Shown here piece after piece: positions 4,026 through 25,600 of a DNA stretch of 45,279 bases. Under the pieces are notes generated by a model. It searched no databases, was not told where the DNA came from, and worked only from the letters and a program-made list of their open reading frames with translations. Each line of letters opens with the position of its first letter. Within the stretch, counting starts at the first letter, position 1. Source of the DNA: an uncultured Clostridia bacterium (GTDB taxonomy: Bacteria > Bacillota > Clostridia > Christensenellales > Aristaeellaceae); the NCBI GenBank assembly GCA_947166705.1, contig CAMVFE010000019.1, positions 1-45,279 on the forward strand, written 5' to 3'. Position numbers and translations under genes: made by a program.

Positions 4026-5714
4026 ATGAAAAAACCGTTGTTGATTTGTCTGGCCCTGGTCGCCGTGGCGGCGATTGCGCTGGCGTGCGTCTTCGGTTCC
4101 CAGAAGGCCGCCCTGCAGAAGCAGGTGGACAGCCTGACCGCGGAACTGAATACCAAGGCCGGGGATCTGGATACCGCAAAGGGTGATCTGGAATCCGTGA
4201 AGGGCGAGCTGGAAGCCGCCCAGGCCGAGCTGACCGGGATGAAGGAACAGGCGGAGAAGGCGAAGAAGCCGGCTGATATCCGGTTCCCTGATTTCTTCGG
4301 AAAGTATCAGAAGCAGGGACAGCGGACCGTGACTCAGGTCAGCCTGACTCCCGGAAGCGCGATGACCGCCTCGATGCCGGAGGACGCGCAGAAGCCGGTT
4401 CAGGATCTGCTGAATGCGCTGAAGATCGAAGTCGTCACCCAGGGAATTGACGGGATGAAGCAGGGCAGCCTGCGCCTGGCGCTGAACGACGAGCCCGCCC
4501 TGGATATCACCGGGGCAGCCGACGGAACGGGGCTCTACGTGGGCTCCTCCCTGCTGGGGGACAAGGTGGTCCGCGTGACGGAGGAGCAGCTGAAGGGGCT
4601 GGCCAACCAGCTGGTTTCCTCGGGCGCCATGAGCCAGGAGCAGGTGGACAAGCTGCTGTCCAGCCTGTTCGGAGGCAGCATGCCGAGCCGGAAGGAAGCG
4701 CTGGCTTCCCTGCTCGGAAACGCGAACGTAACGCCCCTGCTGACCGCGCTGGCGGAGCTGATTCCGCCACAGGGCCTGCAGATGCAGCCGCTGGATGAGG
4801 TTCCCGGGGACGTGACCATCAACGCCGCGTACTCCCTGGTGATCCCGCTGAAGAAGGACGCCCTGGCCAACATCGCCGAGGAAGCGGCGAAGCTGATCTG
4901 GTCCCTGCCCATGGTCCAGCAGTCCGCCGGCGCCATGCAGCTCAACGGCGCGCCGATGACGGAGGAAAACCTGACGAAGGCGCTGCGCGCCTTCCCGGAC
5001 ATGATGGCGGAGGATACGGAATTCCGGCTCTACACGACCGCGGACGGAAACGAGATCCAGGGCCTGTGCTCCGCGCTGCTGGATGTGAACGGGACCCGGA
5101 TTCCCCTGGACTTCAACATGAAGGCCGACCAGGGGAACAGCGGCATGCGGCTGGAATGGACGGCGAACCTGAAGCCGGAAGGCCAGGACGGCATGCAGAT
5201 GGCCGGAAAGATGGACATGACCTCCACGGAGGAGGGCGGAAACCTGACCTATGTGATTACCGCCGCCCAGACGCAGGACGGCAGCGCCTTTACGCCCGTT
5301 GAGGAGACGATCAGCGCCGTATGGACCATCGCCGCGGACGCCGCGACGGCGGACCTGAAGATGGACGTGAAGGTGCTGGAGACCCCGGACGCGGAACCCA
5401 GGAACGTGGTGTTCGCCGCGAAGGTGGACAAGAAGGATCTGGGGGACCACGCGGAGCAGAACGTCACCTTCACCGTTTCCGAGGCGAAGGCGGGCGAACT
5501 GTTCACCCTGGACGCGCAGAGCAGGACGGATATGGGAGAAGCCTACATCATCGCGGAGGGCGCGGCGGAGCCCCTGGCCATGAACCAGGAGGAGCTGGGC
5601 GCCTTCATGCAGGAGATCTCCGGTTCCGCGATGCAGGGCCTGGGCACGCTGATCGGAAAGCTTCCGGAGAGCGTGCAGCCGCTGGTCATGCAGCTCTTCG
5701 GCGGCGGAAAGTGA
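4026..5714 (+). CDS. Membrane-anchored protein with coiled coil, unknown function
   Basis: 562 residues, preceded by AAGGAGGAAGC. A Lys-rich start and hydrophobic stretch (LLICLALVAVAAIALACVFG, about residues 5-24) form a signal anchor. Cys21 is not in a convincing lipobox because the -3 position is Ala. Residues ~28-80 are a heptad-rich coiled coil with repeated LE/AE/KG segments. The remaining ~480 residues, from about FPDFFGKY, alternate strand-like and acidic segments with no motif I recognise. The predicted topology places the bulk outside the cell. A terminator follows, and the next operon has its own promoter, so this gene is probably monocistronic. No function is assigned. Confidence 0.75.
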   Translation: MKKPLLICLALVAVAAIALACVFGSQKAALQKQVDSLTAELNTKAGDLDTAKGDLESVKGELEAAQAELTGMKEQAEKAKKPADIRFPDFFGKYQKQGQRTVTQVSLTPGSAMTASMPEDAQKPVQDLLNALKIEVVTQGIDGMKQGSLRLALNDEPALDITGAADGTGLYVGSSLLGDKVVRVTEEQLKGLANQLVSSGAMSQEQVDKLLSSLFGGSMPSRKEALASLLGNANVTPLLTALAELIPPQGLQMQPLDEVPGDVTINAAYSLVIPLKKDALANIAEEAAKLIWSLPMVQQSAGAMQLNGAPMTEENLTKALRAFPDMMAEDTEFRLYTTADGNEIQGLCSALLDVNGTRIPLDFNMKADQGNSGMRLEWTANLKPEGQDGMQMAGKMDMTSTEEGGNLTYVITAAQTQDGSAFTPVEETISAVWTIAADAATADLKMDVKVLETPDAEPRNVVFAAKVDKKDLGDHAEQNVTFTVSEAKAGELFTLDAQSRTDMGEAYIIAEGAAEPLAMNQEELGAFMQEISGSAMQGLGTLIGKLPESVQPLVMQLFGGGK

Positions 5715-16326: not shown

Positions 16327-17199
16327 ATGAGAATTGGCGCACTGGAAGCCGGCGGAACGAAGATGGTGCTCGGGATCTTTGACGAGGAGGGACACCTGCT
16401 GGAGGATACGAAGCTTCCGACCCGGACGCCGGCGCAGACCATGCCGGAAATCATAAGCTTCTTTCGGGAGAAGGGGATCGAAAAGCTGGGAATCGGAACC
16501 TTCGGCCCGGTGGACCTGAGGGAGGATTCGCCTACCTACGGCAGCATCACGTCCACGCCGAAGCTGGACTGGCGGGATTATCCGCTGCTGAAGACGCTGA
16601 AGGAGGCGCTTGGGGTTCCCTGCGGCATCGATACCGACGTGAACGCCGCGGCGCTGGCGGAGGTGCGGCTGGGCGCCGCCCGGGGCTGCGCGAACGCGGT
16701 GTACGTGACGGTGGGGACCGGCGTGGGCGCCGGGATCTGCGTGGGCGGAAAGCTGGTCCACGGGCTGATGCATCCCGAAGTCGGGCATATGCTGCTGAAG
16801 CCGAATCCGAGGGATCCGCTGCCCCAGGGCATCTGCCCGTACCACGAAAGCTGCCTGGAGGGGCTCGCCTCCGGCCCGGCCATCGCCAAGAGGGCGGGAA
16901 CCGGCGCGGAGAACCTGCAGGACGATGATCCGGTCTTCACGCTGGAGACGGACTACCTGGCGCAGATGTGCGTGAACCTGATCATGGTGCTGAGCCCGGA
17001 GCGGATCGTAATCGGCGGCGGCGTGCTGGGCAAGGAGCACCTGCTGGACCGGGTGAGGAGGGAGACCGTCCGCCTGCTGGGCGGATACATCCAGGCGCCG
17101 GAGGTGACGGCGCGGATCGATTCCTACATCGTGCTGCCGGAGCTTTTCCCGATCAGCGGGCTGATCGGCTCCTGGCTGCTGGGGCGGGACGCGGTCTGA
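16327..17199 (+). CDS. ROK-family sugar kinase, fructokinase-like
   Basis: 290 residues. The phosphate-1 motif is GALEAGGTKMVLGIFD. The sugar-binding and metal site reads HPEVGHMLLKPNP and GICPYHESCLEGLASGPA, a His/Cys zinc site in the form seen in fructokinase/GmuE-type ROK proteins. NAVYVTVGTGVGAGI supplies a further ATP-binding loop. The catalytic base is probably in DTDVNAAALAE (D at about 103). It phosphorylates a hexose, likely fructose or a related ketose, using ATP in the cytosol. A GGGAGGA precedes the ATG. It heads a tight gene run with the deaminase-SLOG and helicase genes (17-bp gap), although a metabolic link is not obvious. Confidence 0.88.
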   Translation: MRIGALEAGGTKMVLGIFDEEGHLLEDTKLPTRTPAQTMPEIISFFREKGIEKLGIGTFGPVDLREDSPTYGSITSTPKLDWRDYPLLKTLKEALGVPCGIDTDVNAAALAEVRLGAARGCANAVYVTVGTGVGAGICVGGKLVHGLMHPEVGHMLLKPNPRDPLPQGICPYHESCLEGLASGPAIAKRAGTGAENLQDDDPVFTLETDYLAQMCVNLIMVLSPERIVIGGGVLGKEHLLDRVRRETVRLLGGYIQAPEVTARIDSYIVLPELFPISGLIGSWLLGRDAV

Positions 17200-17215: not shown

Positions 17216-19696
17216 ATGAAACCCTTCGGATCGTTTTATCTGGACAAGGAAAAGGATATTCTGGTGGAGCTGAGCCTGGAGGACGGGGAGATGTCCTATA
17301 CGCTCAGGACGCCGAACCACGGGACGGGCAACCTGATCTCGAACCTGGCCCGGCTCTGCGGCCTCCGGCTGGATGAGGACGCGGAGGGCCTGAAGATCAT
17401 CCGGGGAACGCTGCCCTGCTATATCGACGGAAGGAACCGGACGCTGTACGTGTTCCGGCTGCTGGACACCAAGATCGCCAATATCCATCCGGACGGAACG
17501 ATCGAGCGGAAGGCGTCCATTCCCGCAATCGCCAAGACCCTGATGAGCCAGACCAAGGACTACCGGCTCGATTTCCGCAAAACGGTGGTCAAGACCTACA
17601 TTCTGCGGGACTGCAAATTCCGCACGGACCTGCATACCCATATGAACGCCAACCTGGATCCGGACGTGCTGATCGCCCTGGGCATCCATCACCAGATCCG
17701 GTATCCGCTGTACTATATCCGCAAGCTGGGCCTGCGCTGCACGCAGGAGCAGGAGGCGCTGCTCGCGGAGCGGAGGGCGCGGACCGCGGAAAGCTTCCGG
17801 GATTCCCCGCTGAAGGGAAAGTACCTGGAGCGGAAGATCAACGACGCCACCTTCCTGAATTTCGCCTCGCTCATCCTTGAAAACCCGGAAAACGCGGCCT
17901 GGAACCTGCCCCGAATCCGCGCCTCGCTGGCGGTGATGAAGGACGGGCAGGCGGTCTTTACCAATCTTGAAAAGGTCTATCTGTACCGCTACGTCTTCTG
18001 CAAGGGGGTTCCGGCGGAGGATCCCATCCCCCCGGCGGGGGAGGAGCGGATTCCGGACCCGGAGATCCGCGACGCCCTGCGCCGGATGAAGGCGGACCGG
18101 GAGCATCCGGTCTTCCGAGACAACACCCTGGCGGAGGACAAGCTCCTGTGGATCGCCCGGGGCTACGCCCGCTGCGGGATCGACTACGCGGAGATCTCGG
18201 ACACCGCCCTGGTCCGGGCGGAGGACGCGCCGCGGATCCTGGCCCAGGCGCACCGGGTGCTGCCCGCCGTTCGCGCGGAGACGGGGGTGACCCTGCGGTT
18301 TCTGGCGGCGCTCCGCCGCACGCCGCTGACGATCCTGAAGGACAGGATCGACCCCGAGGACGCGGTGCGGGACAACCTGCGCACCCTGCGCGCGGTGGCG
18401 GAGGATCCCTATGTGGCGGGCAGCGATATCGTCGGGGAAGAGATGAATGACATCCGGGACCTGGCCCCCCTGCTGCGGGAGCTCGTCCGCCTGGCGGGGG
18501 AACAGCCCGGCTTTACGCTGCGGGTTCATGCCGGGGAGAACGACGGCCTGCGGGAGAATGTGGCGAATACCCTCCGGTGCATCCGGGAAGGGCTCGCACC
18601 CGGGCAGCCGATGCCGCAGGTCCGGATTGGCCACGGGCTGTATACGACCGGGCTTTCCTCCCGCAGGGGACAGGAGCTGCTGCGGGACCTGAAGGAGAGC
18701 GGCGCGGTGCTGGAGTTCCAGATCACCTCCAACGTCCGCCTGAACAACCTGAGCTCCCTGGAACGGCATCCCCTGCGGCAGTATCTGGCGGCGGGGGTGG
18801 CCTGCGTCCAGGGAACGGACGGGGGCGCGCTGTACGGAACGGACTCCATCGACGAGCAGCTGGCGCTGGAGAAGATGCTGAACCTGACCCGGGAGGAGCT
18901 GCTGGCCATGCGCCGGGCGGAGGATCGGGTCCGGGAGGCGGGGCTCCGCTCCCAGGCGGAAAAGGAAACTGCCTGGCGGGAAAAGGCCGGGGACCGGTCC
19001 CCGGAGGCGTATTACCGGGACCGGATCCGGGCGGAGGAGCGCTCGGAGGAGATCCTGATGGAGCTGCCCCGGCGCCGGGAGAGCAGCGTCGCGCTGGCCG
19101 GCCGGATCGAGGAGCTGCCGGTGGACCGGGTGCCGGTGATCCTGATCGGCGGATCCTTCAACAACGACCGGCACCTGACCCGGAAGCGGGCCGCGGTCTG
19201 CCGGATGCTGGATCGGATCATCGCCGGGGGGGATCCGGAAAAGATGTTCCTGGTCATCGGCCACAGCATGTCCGGGTACGAGCGGTACCTGACCGAACGA
19301 AACCAGGGGAAGATGGACGTGTTCGCCTTCGTGCCCTCGCGGATCGACGCGGCGGAGGCCGCCGCGATCCGGCGGATGGGGGTCAGCGTCCGCGTGTCCA
19401 TCGAGCCGAGCCCCATGGGCGTCTACAAGAGCATCTCCTACGAGATCTTCAAGCGGCGGCCCTCGGTGCTGGTGGCGCTGGACGGGAACTCCTCGGCGGT
19501 CAACCTGATCCAGGAGGCGAAGAACGGAAAGCGGAAATGCCATATTCTGGTCTTCGACCGGGCCCGCATGCTGCGGGAAAAGGCGCTGAGCCTTCAGGGC
19601 TACGCAACCCTGTTTGACGAAAAAACGGATCTGCCGGGGCTGGTCCGCGGGGCGGTGGAAGCCTGCTACCCGGAACGCTGGCTCCGCAGGGAGTAA
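17216..19696 (+). CDS. Adenosine deaminase-like protein with C-terminal SLOG-like domain
   Basis: 826 residues, far longer than ordinary adenosine deaminase (about 350). Residues 1-130 are an unassigned N-terminal domain. Residues ~131-580 carry the deaminase metal centre: HTH (140-142, in RTDLHTHMNANL), HAGE (438-441), RIGHG (H473), TSNV (504-507) and GTD (D535), so zinc binding and the catalytic Glu are intact. The usual second Asp of the TDD motif is Gly536, suggesting a changed substrate. The core holds a large insertion at about 165-330. Residues ~637-826 form a Rossmann-like domain (VILIGGSFNNDRHLTRKR, VFAFVP, SVLVALDGNSSAVNLI) resembling SLOG/LOG nucleotide-binding domains. It precedes the helicase gene by 15 bp. 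The function is unknown. Confidence 0.75.
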   Translation: MKPFGSFYLDKEKDILVELSLEDGEMSYTLRTPNHGTGNLISNLARLCGLRLDEDAEGLKIIRGTLPCYIDGRNRTLYVFRLLDTKIANIHPDGTIERKASIPAIAKTLMSQTKDYRLDFRKTVVKTYILRDCKFRTDLHTHMNANLDPDVLIALGIHHQIRYPLYYIRKLGLRCTQEQEALLAERRARTAESFRDSPLKGKYLERKINDATFLNFASLILENPENAAWNLPRIRASLAVMKDGQAVFTNLEKVYLYRYVFCKGVPAEDPIPPAGEERIPDPEIRDALRRMKADREHPVFRDNTLAEDKLLWIARGYARCGIDYAEISDTALVRAEDAPRILAQAHRVLPAVRAETGVTLRFLAALRRTPLTILKDRIDPEDAVRDNLRTLRAVAEDPYVAGSDIVGEEMNDIRDLAPLLRELVRLAGEQPGFTLRVHAGENDGLRENVANTLRCIREGLAPGQPMPQVRIGHGLYTTGLSSRRGQELLRDLKESGAVLEFQITSNVRLNNLSSLERHPLRQYLAAGVACVQGTDGGALYGTDSIDEQLALEKMLNLTREELLAMRRAEDRVREAGLRSQAEKETAWREKAGDRSPEAYYRDRIRAEERSEEILMELPRRRESSVALAGRIEELPVDRVPVILIGGSFNNDRHLTRKRAAVCRMLDRIIAGGDPEKMFLVIGHSMSGYERYLTERNQGKMDVFAFVPSRIDAAEAAAIRRMGVSVRVSIEPSPMGVYKSISYEIFKRRPSVLVALDGNSSAVNLIQEAKNGKRKCHILVFDRARMLREKALSLQGYATLFDEKTDLPGLVRGAVEACYPERWLRRE

Positions 19697-19711
19697 GAAG
19701 GAGAGAGGGCC

Positions 19712-22099
19712 GTGGACGCGCAGGAACTGGAAAAGCGCAGCCGGGAAGCCTATCAGCGGGGCGTGCTGAAGGAGCTGGAGAAGGAGATCCGCCAGCGCAC
19801 GCTGAAGAAGGCCGAGGTCATCACCCGCAGCATGCGGCCCGGGGAAAAGGCGGAATACCTGCAGAGCCGGTCCTTTCAGAACGCGCTGAACCAGACCCGG
19901 AAAAAGGACCGGGTTTATCAGGCGATCTCCGCGGGCGAATTTCCGGAGGATTACGAAGCGGAGTACCGGCGGCTGAAGCCCCTGCTGGAGGCCGAGCTGA
20001 AGCTCGGGCATCCGGCGGACCTGACCTTTCTGAAATCCGTGGCGCGGATCCACCGCCCCCTGCGGGAGGCCCGGGAGGCCCGGAAGCTGATTCTGGAGCG
20101 CCGGCCCGCGGCATACCTGAGGCGCGGCGCCGGGCAGCTGGCCGGGGAGGCGGACCGCGCCGTGACAGCCTACCTGACCCGCGGGGACCTGACCCACCTG
20201 ATCAGGCGGGAGGAGCTCCGCGGCTCCGTGGCGGAGAGCCTGATGAAATCCGTCTTCCGCCGCGGCGTGCCGGAGCAGGTGCTGGACGAGGCGCTGGGCA
20301 GCGGGGGAGCGGAGCGGCTGATGGAGGACCGGATCCGGGAGGCCTTTCCCGCGCTTGATAACTGCCGGGGCCTGCGGCTGGGGCAGGAAGGGACGGTGGA
20401 GGAGCTTCTGCGCCCGCAGATCCGGGAAGCCCGGGGGCATCTGCTGGCCGCCGTCCAGGCGCATTTTCCCCAGGGGCGGATCCGGAAGCACCTGAAGCAG
20501 AACCCCTCCCTCCGGGCGTGGCAGAAGCAGCGGGAGCAGTCCCGGAGCGACCGGAAAAACCTGCGGGAGGCGCTTCTGAAGGCCATCCCGGAGGAGATGA
20601 AGGACCTCTACCCGCTGGCCCGGGGCATGCGCAGGCGGTTTATCCTGCACCTGGGCCCCACCAACTCGGGAAAAACATGGGAGAGCATCCAGCGGCTGCA
20701 GACGGCGCGGAAGGGCATCTATCTGGGTCCCCTGCGCCTGCTGGCCTTCGAGCAGTTCGAGGCCATGAACCTGGCGGACGCGCCCTGCTCGCTGGTGACG
20801 GGGGAGGAGCGCATTCCCGTGCCCGGAAGCCGCATCCAGTCCTCCACCATCGAGATGGCGGACCTGGAGGCGGAATACGATATCGCGGTCATCGACGAGT
20901 GCCAGATGATTGCCGACCGGGACCGGGGCGGCGCGTGGAGCGCCGCGGTCCTGGGGCTGTGCGCGGAGGAAATCCACATCTGCGCCTCGCCCGACGCGGA
21001 GCGGCTGCTGACCGCGATGATCCGGGACTGCGGGGACGAGCTCAGCGTCGTCCGGCATGAGCGGATGGCGCCGCTTTCGGTGGAGGAGGGCGGCTTTCAT
21101 TTCCCCTCCGGCGTCCGGAAGGGGGACGCGCTGATCGTGTTTTCCAAGGCCCGGGTTCACGCGCTGGCGGCGGAGCTGAAGCAGCAGGGGTACCGGGTTT
21201 CCCTGATCTACGGGGCGCTGCCCCCCGACGTGCGGCGCAACCAGGCGGAGCGCTTCCGGCTGGGGGAGACGGACGTGGTGGTTTCCACGGACGCCATCGC
21301 GATGGGCATGAACCTGCCCATCGCCCGGGTCGTCTTCATGGAGAGCGAAAAGTTCGACGGCGACATCACCCGCCAGCTGACGGACTCCGAGATCCGCCAG
21401 ATCGCGGGCCGCGCGGGCAGATACGGGCAGTACGACATCGGGTACGTGAACGCCTTCGGCTTCAAACCCCTGGTGGCGCAGGCCCTGAGCCGGCCGGCCC
21501 TGCCGCTGACGACCGCGGTCATCCGCTTCCCCGAATCCCTGCTGGGGCTGCCCCTTTCGCTGACGGAAACCCTGAACCAGTGGGTCAGCATGAAGGACAA
21601 ATCCTATTTTTCCAAGGCGTCCACCATGCGGATGATGTCCCTGGCCGTCCGGATGGAAACCCGGAACACGGACAAGCGCCTGCTCTACGAGTTCCTCTGC
21701 ATCCCCTTTGACGAGGAGGACCCGGCGCTGCTGGCGGAATGGAAGAACATGTACCACGCGGAGTGCGCGGGACGGCACTTCGATGTGGAGGCAATCCTGC
21801 CGGAGCTGATCGATCCGGAGAGCTGCACCGTGGCGATGCTGGACCGGCTGGAGGGGGATTACCGGCTCTGCGACCTGTGCTACAACTATGCCCGCCGGTT
21901 CCTGGAGAACGCGGACGCGCTGCTGCAGACCATCCAGCAGCGGAAGGACCTGATTTCCTCCGGCATCATTCATGTCCTTTCCACCCAGAAGCTGCCGGGA
22001 CGGAAATGCCGCCTCTGCGGAAAACGCCTGCCCTGGGACTGGCCCTACGCCGTCTGCGACCCCTGCCACCGCTCCCGCGGGGGCTGGGCGGGGGCTTGA
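19712..22099 (+). CDS. Suv3-like RNA helicase with C-terminal zinc ribbon
   Basis: 795 residues, starting at GTG 19712 with AAGGAG 9 nt upstream. Residues 1-305 are a charged, helical N-terminal region without a recognised domain. The helicase core follows: Walker A LGPTNSGKTWES (about 314-325), motif Ia IYLGPLRLLA, motif II IDECQM (394-399, like the DEIQ of Suv3), motif V VVSTDAIAMGMNLP and motif VI QIAGRAGRYG. These match the Suv3 subgroup of Ski2-like RNA helicases, best known from the mitochondrial degradosome. The tail has a four-Cys zinc ribbon (C766, C769, C782, C785). It is probably an RNA-unwinding partner of the upstream deaminase-like protein; that link rests on adjacency only. Confidence 0.8.
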   Translation: MDAQELEKRSREAYQRGVLKELEKEIRQRTLKKAEVITRSMRPGEKAEYLQSRSFQNALNQTRKKDRVYQAISAGEFPEDYEAEYRRLKPLLEAELKLGHPADLTFLKSVARIHRPLREAREARKLILERRPAAYLRRGAGQLAGEADRAVTAYLTRGDLTHLIRREELRGSVAESLMKSVFRRGVPEQVLDEALGSGGAERLMEDRIREAFPALDNCRGLRLGQEGTVEELLRPQIREARGHLLAAVQAHFPQGRIRKHLKQNPSLRAWQKQREQSRSDRKNLREALLKAIPEEMKDLYPLARGMRRRFILHLGPTNSGKTWESIQRLQTARKGIYLGPLRLLAFEQFEAMNLADAPCSLVTGEERIPVPGSRIQSSTIEMADLEAEYDIAVIDECQMIADRDRGGAWSAAVLGLCAEEIHICASPDAERLLTAMIRDCGDELSVVRHERMAPLSVEEGGFHFPSGVRKGDALIVFSKARVHALAAELKQQGYRVSLIYGALPPDVRRNQAERFRLGETDVVVSTDAIAMGMNLPIARVVFMESEKFDGDITRQLTDSEIRQIAGRAGRYGQYDIGYVNAFGFKPLVAQALSRPALPLTTAVIRFPESLLGLPLSLTETLNQWVSMKDKSYFSKASTMRMMSLAVRMETRNTDKRLLYEFLCIPFDEEDPALLAEWKNMYHAECAGRHFDVEAILPELIDPESCTVAMLDRLEGDYRLCDLCYNYARRFLENADALLQTIQQRKDLISSGIIHVLSTQKLPGRKCRLCGKRLPWDWPYAVCDPCHRSRGGWAGA

Positions 22100-22174: not shown

Positions 22175-22708
22175 ATGAAGATTCTGGCCTGGCTGCTGAG
22201 CCTGTTTTTTGCTTTCAATCTGGGCGCTGAAAAGGGAACCGCGCCCAAGGCGTCGGACGATGAGCTCCGCGGCCGCGTGCAGGAGCACATCGACGTGATC
22301 GTGGACGAGAGCGCCGCGATCGTGGACGAGGTGACGGACGAACTGCGGAACAGCCCCGCCGCGCAGGACGCGGAGAAATACGCCCGGGACGTCCGGGAAA
22401 TCGCGGAGGGAACGCTGACCGACCTGAACCAGGTCGTGGAGAACACGAAGGACCGGGTCGAGGAGAAATTCGGCACGGGGGACGCGCCTGCCCTGGAAGA
22501 GGACACCGTGGAGGCGGAGTCCCTGCCGGAGCTGACGGAGGAAGCCGCGGAGACGGAGTCCCTGCCGGCCGTGGAGGAGGACGCCGTGGAGACGGAAGCA
22601 GCCGGGGACGCCCCGGAGTCTGAGCTTCCGCCGGCGGAGGCCCTGCCGGAGGCGGAGCTCCTGCCCGGCGAGGAAACCCCCGCCCCGGGCGAACCCGTCA
22701 ACGGCTGA
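22175..22708 (+). CDS. Small acidic exported protein, unknown function
   Basis: 177 residues with a short N-terminal hydrophobic segment (ILAWLLSLFFAFNLGAEKG, residues ~3-21) that looks like a signal peptide or anchor. Residues ~30-100 form helices rich in charged residues (IDVIVDESAAIVDEVTDEL). From about residue 105 the chain is an acidic, Pro- and Glu-rich low-complexity tail with repeated ESLPE/AxxL units. No enzymatic motif is present. GGAGGAG precedes the ATG. It lies 75 bp after the helicase and ends before a strong terminator, so it is probably the last gene of that operon. The function is unknown. Confidence 0.7.
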   Translation: MKILAWLLSLFFAFNLGAEKGTAPKASDDELRGRVQEHIDVIVDESAAIVDEVTDELRNSPAAQDAEKYARDVREIAEGTLTDLNQVVENTKDRVEEKFGTGDAPALEEDTVEAESLPELTEEAAETESLPAVEEDAVETEAAGDAPESELPPAEALPEAELLPGEETPAPGEPVNG

Positions 22709-22724: not shown

Positions 22725-22756
22725 TCGGCGCTCCGGAGGGAGCGCCGATGCTTTTT
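22725..22756 (+). terminator. Rho-independent terminator
   Basis: TCGGCGCTCC (22725-22734), loop GGAG, GGAGCGCCGA (22739-22748), then TGC and five T. It closes the ROK-deaminase-helicase-exported protein operon. Confidence 0.9.
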
Positions 22757-22813
22757 CGGTCAATACACGGCCCGCGGGCGGCGGAAGCCCCGGGGAGAAA
22801 AGCGGGAGGAAAC

Positions 22814-25600
22814 ATGCTGACGGTTCAGAACCTGCGGAAGGAATACCGGTCGGGCACCCTCGTCCAAAAGGCGCTGGACGGGGTTTCCCTGTCCTTCCGC
22901 GAGCATGAATTCGTCGCGATCCTCGGGCCCTCCGGCTCCGGGAAGACCACGCTGCTGAACATGATCGGCGGGCTGGACCGCTATGACAGCGGGGACCTGC
23001 TGATCCACGGCGTTTCCACCCGGCAGTACCGGGACCGGGACTGGGACACCTACCGCAACCACACCGTGGGCTTCATTTTCCAGAGCTATAACCTGATTCC
23101 CCATCAGACGCTGCTGGCCAACGTCGAGCTGGCGCTGACGCTCAACGGGGTCAGCCGCGAGGAGCGGCGCCAGCGGGCGATGGAGGCGCTGGAGCGCGTC
23201 GGGCTGAAGGAGCACGCGCAGAAAAAGCCCGGGCAGCTCTCCGGGGGACAGATGCAGCGCGTCGCCATCGCGCGGGCGCTGGTCAACCGGCCGGCCATCC
23301 TGCTGGCGGACGAACCCACAGGCGCCCTGGACTCGGATACGGGGCGGCAGGTCATGGAGCTGCTCAGGGAGATGGCGGAGGACCACCTGGTGATCATGGT
23401 GACGCATAATCCGAAGCTGGCGAAGAAATACGCGACGCGCATCGTCCGGCTGAAGGACGGCCGGATCACCCGGGACTCCGATCCCTTTGAGGAGGATGAA
23501 ACCGGGGGCGAGCTGACGCGGCTCCGGAAGCCGTCCATGTCCTACGCCACCTCCTTCAGCCTGTCCCTGGCCAACCTCTGGTCCAAAAAGGCCCGGACCC
23601 TGCTGGTCGCCTTCGCGGCGTCGATCGGGATCGTGGGCATCGCGCTGATCCTTTCCCTTTCCAACGGGGCCAACGCGTATATCCGCCGGATGGAGCAGGA
23701 GAGCCTGAGCCAGTATCCCCTGCAGATCATGAGCTCCACCTTCTCCATGGCGGACTCCCTGGAGGCCTTCGCCCAGCTGCGCGGGGAGACGGAGTCCGGC
23801 GAGGCGGACGGCAGGATTCGGGAGGAGCAGCTGATGGGCGGCTTCATGGCCTCCACGGCGACCAACGACCTGGCGTCCCTGAAAAAGTGGATCGACAGCG
23901 GATACAGCGGCATGGAGGAGCAGGCCCGGGCGATCACCTATTCCTACGGGATCACGCCGCAGATTTACCTGCTGGGGGAGGAGGGCTTCCGGCAGGTGAA
24001 CCCGGATCAGACCCTGTCCACCTTCGGCGTCCGGTTTGACGAGAGCCTGTCGGGCATCTTCGCCAATTACGGCGCCGGCGAGGTTTTCCGCGCCCTGCCG
24101 GAAGACCGGGAGATGTATGAGCCGGAATATGAGCTGCTGGCGGGAGAATGGCCGAAGCGGGATACGGACTGCGTGGTGGTGCTGGCCGCCGGCGGCAGGA
24201 TCCCGGACGTGATGCTCTACGCCATGGGGCTGCGGGACGGGGAAAAGCTGGACGCCATGATCGAGGGAGTCGTGGCCGGGCAGGATGTGGACACGGGCCT
24301 GACGGAGACCCGGAGCTACGCGCCGGAGGACTTCCTGGGCATCACCTTCCGGCTGCTTCCGGCCTGGGAACGTTTCTCCCGGGATGAACAGCTGGGCGTC
24401 TGGACGGACTGCCGGGAGAACGAGAAGAAAATGCTGGAGCTGCTGAAGCTCCGCGGGCAGGAAATGCGGATCACCGGCGTGGTGCAGCCGAAGGAGGGGA
24501 CTTCCTTCGGCATCCTGGAGTTGGGCATCGAGTACCCGGCGGAGCTGATTACCCGGCTGATCCGGGAGGCGGGGGAAAGCCCCGCGGTCCGGGCCCAGCG
24601 GAAGAGCCCGGAGACGGACGTGCTGACGGGGGCCGCCTTCGGGGAAACGCCGGACATCGGCTACGGGTTCCTGAAGGACCTGATCGAGATCCATCCGGAC
24701 CAGCTGGGGGACGCTGTTTCCTTCCGGTGGGAGGACATCGGCAGCCTGGAGACGGAGGAGACCCGCCTGACGGCCGCGCGCACGGTCCGGATCCTGCGGG
24801 AGCTCAGCCGGACCGGGGAATCCCCGACCCTGCGGAGCATGGCGGAGGCGGGCATGCCGCTGCTGCTGGACCTGATCGAAATCGACAGCGAAAAGCTGGG
24901 GAAGGCGGTCGAGCTGGACCTGGATGACGGCCGCCTGAAGGAGCTCTTTTCCTCCCGGGCGTCGGCGGCGACCGCGACCCTGGCCGGGAACCTGCTGAAA
25001 TTCGGATACGCGGATCCCTCGCAGCCCATCATGGTGACCTTCTATCCCCGGGACTTTGAAAGCAAGAACGAGCTTCTCCGGATCCTGGACGCCTACAATG
25101 ACGTGATGCGGGAGGAGGGATATCCGGAGCGCGCGATCGCCTACACGGATTATGTCGGCGCGCTGATGTCCTCGGTCACGACCATCATTGACGTGATTAC
25201 CTACGTGCTGATCGCCTTCGTGGCGGTTTCCCTGGTGGTCTCCTCCATCATGATCGGCATCATCACCTATATCTCCGTGATCGAGCGGAGAAAGGAAATC
25301 GGCATCCTGCGGGCGATGGGTGCCTCCCGGCGGAACGTGATCCAGGTCTTCAACGCGGAGACCTTCATCATCGGGCTGCTGGCCGGCACCTTCGGCATCG
25401 GGCTGACCCTGCTGCTGCAGATTCCCATCAATTACGTGATCCGGACCCTGGCGAACCAGGAGGGGATCCGGGCCTTCCTGCCGCCCGGCGCGGGCGGCAT
25501 CCTGATCCTGCTGTGCATCCTGCTGACGCTGGTGGGCGGCTTCATTCCCGCCCGGAAGGCGGCGAAGCAGGACCCGGTGGAAGCGCTGCGGAGCGAATAG
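22814..25600 (+). CDS. MacB-like ABC transporter, fused ATPase and permease
   Basis: 928 residues. The ATPase occupies about 1-235: Walker A GPSGSGKT (38-45), signature [16 protein letters not shown], Walker [14 protein letters not shown] and MVTHNP. A FtsX-type permease follows: a first TM ([20 protein letters not shown], about 260-280), a ~500-residue extracellular region, and three C-terminal TMs ([60 protein letters not shown]). It ends DPVEALRSE, typical of the family. The ATG at 22814 follows GGAGGA closely. Such mechanotransmission ABC proteins export or sense peptides and envelope components; the substrate is unknown. No adjacent membrane-fusion or two-component genes are present. Confidence 0.88.

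Follow-up and report, generated by a model that had tools for sequence, protein, structure and literature searches.

A putative stand-alone nucleotide deaminase with a SLOG-like domain, and its helicase neighbour, in a Clostridia genome

Does a deaminase gene that lies 15 bp upstream of an RNA helicase gene, on the same strand, form a functional unit with it, and what might the deaminase do if it does not? The question arises in a stretch of 45,279 nucleotides (hereafter the window) from an uncultured Clostridia bacterium (GenBank assembly GCA_947166705.1, contig CAMVFE010000019.1), which is contig C19 of a genome of 2.18 Mb in 73 contigs. Both genes described in an earlier note, made from the letters of the window alone, are present: the deaminase P0001 at 17216..19696 (826 aa, ATG start), an open reading frame (ORF) with a match to PF00962, and the Suv3-type helicase P0002 at 19712..22099 (795 aa, GTG start). 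All features of these two genes given below lie, like the genes, on the forward strand. An antisense ORF of 1856 aa overlaps both, and we consider the deaminase and helicase frames to be the coding ones because they have near full-length relatives in other genomes. The feature as a whole is far beyond chance, but its being one unit is not confirmed. The deaminase gene stands alone, without a conserved partner gene. We propose, with about even confidence and from sequence comparison, that this protein, which joins an adenosine deaminase (ADA) barrel to a SLOG-like domain and is here called ADA-SLOG, is a stand-alone, ligand-gated deaminase of a phosphorylated adenine nucleotide. The proposal draws on the order of its domains, an intact metal centre, the loss of two aspartates, the lack of a conserved partner and a profile-level relationship to SLOG proteins.

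Compared with Pfam, P0001 matches A_deaminase (PF00962) with E 2.9e-13 and 50 bits (cut-off 27) over residues 351-565. The ADA TIM barrel, whose limits were set by eye at about residues 134-585 (17615..18970), contains a large insertion after the HxH strand. Conservation was counted in 95 aligned rows, representing 93 distinct sequences and leaving out the truncated loci L057, L064 and L099. The metal ligands H140-T-H142 (17633..17641) have His at both positions in 94 rows, the remaining row being truncated. H438 and E441 of the H438-A-G-E441 motif (18527..18538), a metal ligand and the catalytic Glu, are found in all 95, as is the catalytic H473 (18632..18634), and the metal Asp of D535-G536 (18818..18823) is kept in 94, with Gly in L048. 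In the family alignment H140-x-H142 lies on strand 1 and D535 on strand 8, and the other barrel motifs are DxxGEE (404-409), HAGE (438-441) and GHG (472-474); 139 residues precede H140 and 296 lie between H142 and H438. The complete deaminase metal centre claimed in the earlier note is therefore present, in H140, H142, H438, H473 and D535 with the catalytic E441.

Asp19 and Asp296 of mouse ADA, which take part in nucleoside binding, are both replaced. The Asp19 place, a contact to the 5'/3'-OH, is taken by N144 (17645..17647; 88 Asn, 6 Ser and one gap among the 95 rows), and the Asp296 place by Gly536 in all 95. Judged as an ordinary ADA, then, the protein has the metal ligands, the catalytic Glu and the catalytic His, and is without Asp19 and Asp296. 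It was compared with six other proteins of the same genus (L187 and L188, with no usable ORF, were left out). The ordinary ADAs L184 and L185, from two genomes, served as a control and carry HLHLDGA and TDDP with both aspartates present, and four further ADA-superfamily proteins have TDD or SDD in the aligned Asp296 region. Bacterial ADAs (PF00962) share with ADA-SLOG the TIM barrel, the metal centre and the HAGE and GHG motifs; they are about 340 aa long, against 826, whereas ADA-SLOG has lost the nucleoside-binding aspartates and gained two domains. Two groups of the genus were noted by eye for their own sake: L191 and L193, of about 490-500 aa, form a second group of ADA-type proteins that begin with a hydrophobic, signal-like segment and carry SDDG as a motif, and are possibly exported deaminases, while L189 and L190 (463-488 aa) have an apparent GNAT acetyltransferase domain in frame with an ADA-type deaminase.

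The closest model in PADLOC was CARF_ADA (Cad1), matched by 43 of 52 family members with a best E of 5e-9; in P0001 the match spans residues 346-566, the ADA part alone. According to the TaqCad1 report (PMC12669630), that enzyme has Gly264 and Asn549 at the ADA Asp19 and Asp296 places, deaminates adenosine weakly at most, turns ATP into ITP once its CARF domain has bound cyclic oligoadenylate, and is inactive on ATP as the N549D variant. Cad1/CAAD and ADA-SLOG thus both join an ADA barrel to a Rossmann-like ligand-binding domain, and in both the two aspartates are replaced, although the replacing residues differ (N/S144 and G536 here). Cad1 has a CARF domain and a role in type III CRISPR, whereas the sensor-like domain of ADA-SLOG is C-terminal and SLOG-like, is accompanied by a third, N-terminal domain, and has no recurrent CRISPR gene nearby. 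Pfam gave no CARF match in P0001, nor in the N- or C-terminal domains of the 52 members. From the Cad1-like replacement of both aspartates, and from CARF_ADA being the nearest model, we infer that the substrate would be a phosphorylated adenine nucleotide.

RADAR, whose RdrA and RdrB profiles the earlier note had proposed to search with, was the other candidate. According to PMC9994260, RdrB is a protein of about 90 kDa that converts ATP to ITP; it carries H152, H154, H498, H530 and E501, is extended at its N-terminus and has its core split by an insertion. By that description ADA-SLOG is alike in size, N-terminal extension, core-splitting insertion and His/Glu centre, with 344 residues between H154 and H498 in RdrB against 296 between the corresponding histidines of P0001. 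The RADAR profile search did not support membership, the family matching neither RdrB nor any other RADAR profile. RdrB gave zero matches at E<=1 with P0001 in NCBIfam and PADLOC, or with the 52 members in PADLOC, and the RdrB model NF041744 gave zero matches in the window genome. Searched against 398 genomes of the phylum, the RdrB model gave seven weak matches below cut-off, in ORFs of 321-385 aa, and thus yielded no RdrB sequence for comparison. RdrA was absent from PADLOC matches at E<=1e-10 among 150 neighbouring proteins of 60-520 aa at offsets 1 and 2, and the neighbour in the window is a Suv3-type SF2 helicase. With no RdrB match and no RdrA-like partner, and with a protein that ends in a SLOG-like domain, we rejected RADAR membership. 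The best-supported view is that ADA-SLOG would work like Cad1 while being a member of neither Cad1 nor RADAR. We found the family in no reference library, and no description of the fusion in the literature searched (PMC7159879, PMC7272460 and PMC12948488 among it); a mention in a 2015 survey of SLOG systems is possible.

What could gate such an enzyme? The C-terminal domain (19121..19558, about residues 636-781) has invariant GGSF, YKS and DG(N) stretches; E730, K738, S739, E743, D756, N763, Q766 and N770 occur in all 95 rows, and N758 in all but one. Sequence searches of Pfam and PDB with it returned nothing above cut-off. Its strand order, judged by eye, and its DGNSxxxNxxQxA motif resemble YspA-type SLOG proteins, for which we built a profile of 118 sequences, some near-identical, obtained from viral contigs through a DNA pattern of their motif; two of the 118 were confirmed as PF10686 ('YspA, cpYpsA-related SLOG family'). 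Aligned by hhalign along some 116 collinear columns, from the first strand through the DG.S motif, the C-terminal domain and this profile gave a probability of 86-88% with a pairwise E of 3-5e-6. In the controls, no more than 19.3% was obtained from 60 column-shuffled YspA profiles, 0.3% from the reversed profile and 1.0% or less from six other blocks of P0001. YspA proteins differ in several ways: most of them stand alone, they are about 115-130 aa long, they occur commonly in viral contigs, and they have WDGKSxGT where ADA-SLOG has DGNSxxxN. We conclude that the link to YspA-type SLOG proteins has moderate support and that the C-terminal domain is probably a SLOG domain; the SLOG-like domain of the earlier note stands on profile similarity, against the missing SLOG fold that the note had set as a refuting outcome, but found no backing in the Pfam, PDB, LOG and STALD comparisons. 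Among the viral contigs, YspA-type SLOG proteins with an FWDGxSxGT motif are common in their own right (at least 120, L236-L355), and searches of these contigs with one ThsA and one LOG protein gave zero further SLOG sequences.

The SLOG superfamily includes LOG phosphoribohydrolases, and so the protein might be a bifunctional nucleotide destroyer, the barrel deaminating and the SLOG domain cleaving the glycosidic bond as LOG proteins do. The many invariant polar residues of the C-terminal domain listed above, from E730 to N770, would suit a catalytic role, but the best profile match is to the YspA type, for which we know of no catalysis, and the LOG profile reached 0.1%; we regard this reading as quite unlikely. 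For gating there is a precedent in Thoeris, where the SLOG domain of ThsA gates a nucleotide-destroying effector (PMC7272460, PMC12948488). ThsA resembles ADA-SLOG in joining a nucleotide-destroying enzyme to a C-terminal SLOG sensor (SIR2-SLOG), and differs in being an NADase rather than a deaminase and in needing ThsB; a small profile of its STALD type did not match the ADA-SLOG C-terminal domain. STALD domains were seen in two of 61 related genomes (L173 in G007 and L174 in G002, of the same genus, ThsA-like SIR2-SLOG proteins by eye) and in six of 199 genomes of another family (L230-L235, five of them over the cut-off).

The remaining domain, N-terminal and specific to the family (17216..17614, residues 1-133), has a mean column identity of 75% among the 52 members, sub-threshold Pfam matches at most and zero PDB matches. 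In the 398 phylum genomes the N- and C-terminal domains were each found in two, always together in one ORF, and the occurrence of either in other architectures was rejected; two weak matches to the C-terminal domain (E 0.003-0.004) were left aside. In the mechanism that we propose, the SLOG domain would bind a nucleotide-derived signal or metabolite, the N-terminal domain and the barrel insertion would form an oligomer, and the bound signal would open the ADA barrel. There, one metal ion and the Glu of HAGE would convert the phosphorylated adenine nucleotide, most likely ATP or dATP, to its inosine form.

None of these steps involves the helicase, and the genomes of the genus do not make it a partner. 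The helicase matches the Pfam families DEXQc_Suv3 (PF22527, E 8e-59, 20603..21055) and Helicase_C (PF00271, E 2e-15, 21119..21427), as well as Suv3/SUPV3L1 structures (E ~3e-69), and a CxxC...CxxC zinc-ribbon-like tail can be read from its translation at about residues 766-785 (22007..22066), so that the earlier identification of a Suv3-type helicase with a zinc ribbon was correct. It shares the DEXQ and helicase C domains with Suv3/SUPV3L1, but is bacterial, has another N-terminal region and ends in the short zinc-ribbon-like tail; zero matches to a further Suv3 domain were found in Pfam at E<=1.

In a sample of 37 genomes of the genus, the window's included, a near full-length deaminase is present in 27 (G003 has an in-frame stop and G024 is cut by a contig end) and a near full-length helicase in 34 (G016 has an in-frame stop). 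Both genes are present in 26 genomes and are adjacent in two, the window's own (G000) and G025. In the other 24 they are 5.9-10.5 kb apart in three (G008, G036 and G027), 117-174 kb apart on one contig in three and on different contigs in 18. The helicase is also found in eight of the ten genomes without a near full-length deaminase, two of the ten keeping short deaminase fragments. Among 80 related loci, 11 with fewer than 600 bases of downstream sequence and 59 with at least 2400, the helicase is adjacent in L033 alone, which is the locus of G025; at L037 a 45%-identical Suv3-like helicase lies 1.6 kb away on the other strand. The surroundings of the helicase vary; in G017 and G018 it adjoins the genes found after it in the window, and the deaminase is not with them.

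The earlier note had imagined the pair editing RNA from A to I or turning it over. A deaminase and helicase acting together in RNA editing or RNA quality control would fit the close spacing on one strand in the window, the adjacency in G025 and the looser linkage in G008, G036 and G027. However, adjacency is rare elsewhere, an outcome that the note had set as refuting, and the pair idea is therefore not supported: two of 26 genomes and one of 80 loci have it, the helicase occurs independently of the deaminase and in varying surroundings, and the genomes of the genus show a loose neighbourhood and no pair. We rejected the pair as a unit and think such a joint role highly improbable. The best explanation is that P0002 is a separate RNA helicase and a chance downstream neighbour here and in one other genome. 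A nucleotide-sensing or -modifying role thus survives for the deaminase and falls away for the pair and for RNA. In G008 a 796-aa protein bearing 'HAGEN' beside the helicase was discarded as glycosidase-like by eye, with a chance motif.

If the helicase is not the partner, is any other gene? The neighbourhoods of 81 loci (the 80 and the window) hold 730 neighbouring ORFs within six genes, and among them no group of neighbours has a near-fixed place in more than eight loci. The largest cluster, of ABC-type ATPases by eye, is spread over 17 loci at scattered offsets; the others cover at most eight loci, the group of eight combining Ruminococcus-like and other Clostridia loci. One group recurs in two phyla: seven loci, five of them related and from Lachnospiraceae and two from Coriobacteriaceae (L051, L052, L080, L085, L093, L094 and L111), have a 4-alpha-glucanotransferase-like gene as the first or second gene before the deaminase, which may reflect chance or a shared maltodextrin locus. 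In the window, a ROK-family sugar kinase (16327..17199, forward strand; PF00480, E 2e-58) ends 16 bp upstream of the deaminase start, and no counterpart clustered with it across the stretches of 20 other loci of the genus.

Protein scans covered 150 of the 730 neighbours, of 60-520 aa and at offsets 1 and 2. At E<=1e-10, 12 PADLOC models match, each in one or two of the 150; these are raw counts with no background rate. They include viperin-, Avs1a-, LmuA- and RT-associated models, and those of CRISPR type, each matched by a single protein, are two WYL, two Csa3 and one SAVED-TIR model, so that the 150 proteins give no recurrent type III CRISPR linkage at that threshold. House-keeping families lead the Pfam matches listed, TrmO, TruB and FAD synthetase for example, and each occurs in 2-5 proteins; among the 25 families listed of 134 no purine gene recurs, adenylosuccinate synthetase appearing once.

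Carriage by mobile elements was likewise rejected, on searches of plasmid, phage and viral collections. By tblastn, neither 72,556 plasmids nor 50,697 phage records contained a full-length deaminase. There were four partial matches, each covering 20-30% of the query at 26-32% identity: two in plasmids, with an annotation as adenosine deaminase, and two in phages, with none. The viral contigs of IMG/VR contained no copy in a scan that reaches close relatives only. Together, the neighbourhood and the plasmid, phage and viral searches weaken any claim of a defence island or of mobile cargo. In the window, frr, dxr, polC, a Ppx/GppA gene and rpoB start about 6 kb downstream of the deaminase, and the locus is therefore part of a core chromosomal stretch.

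How the gene came to its present distribution is a separate matter. A scan of one genome per GTDB species gave 347 relatives, and the best 80 of these come from Clostridia (Lachnospiraceae, Ruminococcaceae and others), Erysipelotrichaceae and Actinomycetota (Atopobiaceae/Coriobacteriaceae); many of the 80 come from assemblies of ruminant guts. The family of G202, which belongs to the same class, has the deaminase in 18 of 299 genomes at >700 bits. In a quick tree of 94 rows, made with no bootstrap, 19 Actinomycetota rows and eight Clostridia rows, including the window, form one clade with a Shimodaira-Hasegawa-like approximate likelihood ratio test (SH-aLRT) value of 100, and with midpoint rooting the Actinomycetota rows nest inside Clostridia. 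Actinomycetota copies are 68-72% identical to P0001, against 53-61% for 19 of the 26 other copies of its own genus; being closer than most same-genus copies, they point to one or more transfers between phyla. Of 20 loci in the genus, seven occupy one common chromosomal place, where three genes recur downstream; upstream, four of these seven have several genes in common with the window. The helicase identities split alike (69-84% against 57-61%), with G032 and G036 differing between the two genes. The common place and the parallel split therefore indicate that inheritance within the genus is partly vertical.

Such facts might suit a house-keeping purine enzyme, an allosteric AMP-deaminase-like or salvage deaminase whose C-terminal domain senses the purine pool; this overlaps our proposal in gating and differs in substrate and purpose. 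The near full-length gene in 27 of 37 genus genomes, the seven loci with a common place, the house-keeping families among the commonest listed neighbours, the position about 6 kb upstream of frr in a stretch shared with polC and rpoB, and the lack of full-length copies in the plasmid and phage collections and of any in the viral contigs (as scanned for close relatives) all favour it. AMP deaminases have a large insertion after the HxH strand, to which that of P0001 can be likened. However, P0001 has zero Pfam AMP-deaminase matches at E<=1, the gene is patchy outside the genus (18 of the 299 genomes mentioned and two of the 398 phylum genomes), the identity pattern between phyla points to transfer, and no purine gene recurs among the neighbour families listed. 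We give the purine enzyme an appreciable probability, though clearly less than even.

Our proposal of a ligand-gated nucleotide deaminase can be taken a step further, tentatively and with more doubt than confidence, to a one-protein immune or stress system in which the SLOG domain would read a nucleotide signal and the ATP/dATP pool would then be deaminated. It would be a CRISPR-free and partner-free counterpart of Cad1 and RADAR, chromosomal in many rumen and gut Clostridia, with transfer of its gene between Clostridia and Coriobacteria. A lone immune gene on the chromosome may be compatible with the lack of a defence neighbourhood.

Several points weigh against the proposal or this purpose. 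The argument from Cad1 parallels to the substrate is limited, and Gly536 stands here where Cad1 has Asn. Gating could suit a metabolic enzyme no less than a defensive one, and no defence island or mobile-element location was found. The SLOG score comes partly from a stretch of about 30 residues around DGNS: eight YspA subsamples of 11 sequences gave hhalign probabilities of 5-75%, and in three of the eight the alignment was confined to that stretch. LOG and STALD profiles, of 2-6 sequences each, reached 0.1-0.6% against the C-terminal domain (LOG 0.1%), in tests without power because of those small numbers and because the LOG-STALD control failed too; at such sizes genuine SLOG profiles scarcely match each other (LOG-STALD 1-7%, STALD-YspA 5%, LOG-YspA 16%). 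That domain alone might instead be Toprim-like: 28 of the 52 members have weak Toprim_2 matches, the best at E 0.007, and in ten members looked at closely these cover the DGN stretch alone, at fragment residues of about 111-154. The matches in those ten, though, all fall under the Pfam cut-offs, and a Toprim profile built crudely from 11 sequences reached 2.7%, below the range of the equal-sized YspA subsamples; a Toprim-like domain seems unlikely.

In the literature searched, RADAR and Cad1 are the two systems described as using ATP deamination as a weapon, and each depends on a partner or on a CRISPR signal. Should ADA-SLOG prove to be an immune system, its similarly altered site and SLOG-like domain would make a third, self-contained design, and the ligand that it binds would represent a new nucleotide signal or checkpoint, in bacteria that are frequent in the guts of ruminants. 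Should its role be metabolic, it would nonetheless be a regulated nucleotide deaminase of a kind not described before.

The rest of the window yielded minor observations. ARAGORN found zero tRNA genes in it, and Rfam gave zero matches at gathering scores. Downstream of the helicase lie a gene (22175-22708) whose small product, of 177 aa, matches no Pfam family above cut-off, and an ABC/FtsX-type transporter gene (22748-25600); both adjoin the helicase in G017 and G018 too, in divergent orientation. A 562-aa ORF at 4026-5714 has a good coding score and no Pfam match at E<=1e-5. Finally, one assembly among the relatives, JAFWIM01, carries two closely similar copies of the deaminase on two contigs (L066 and L067).

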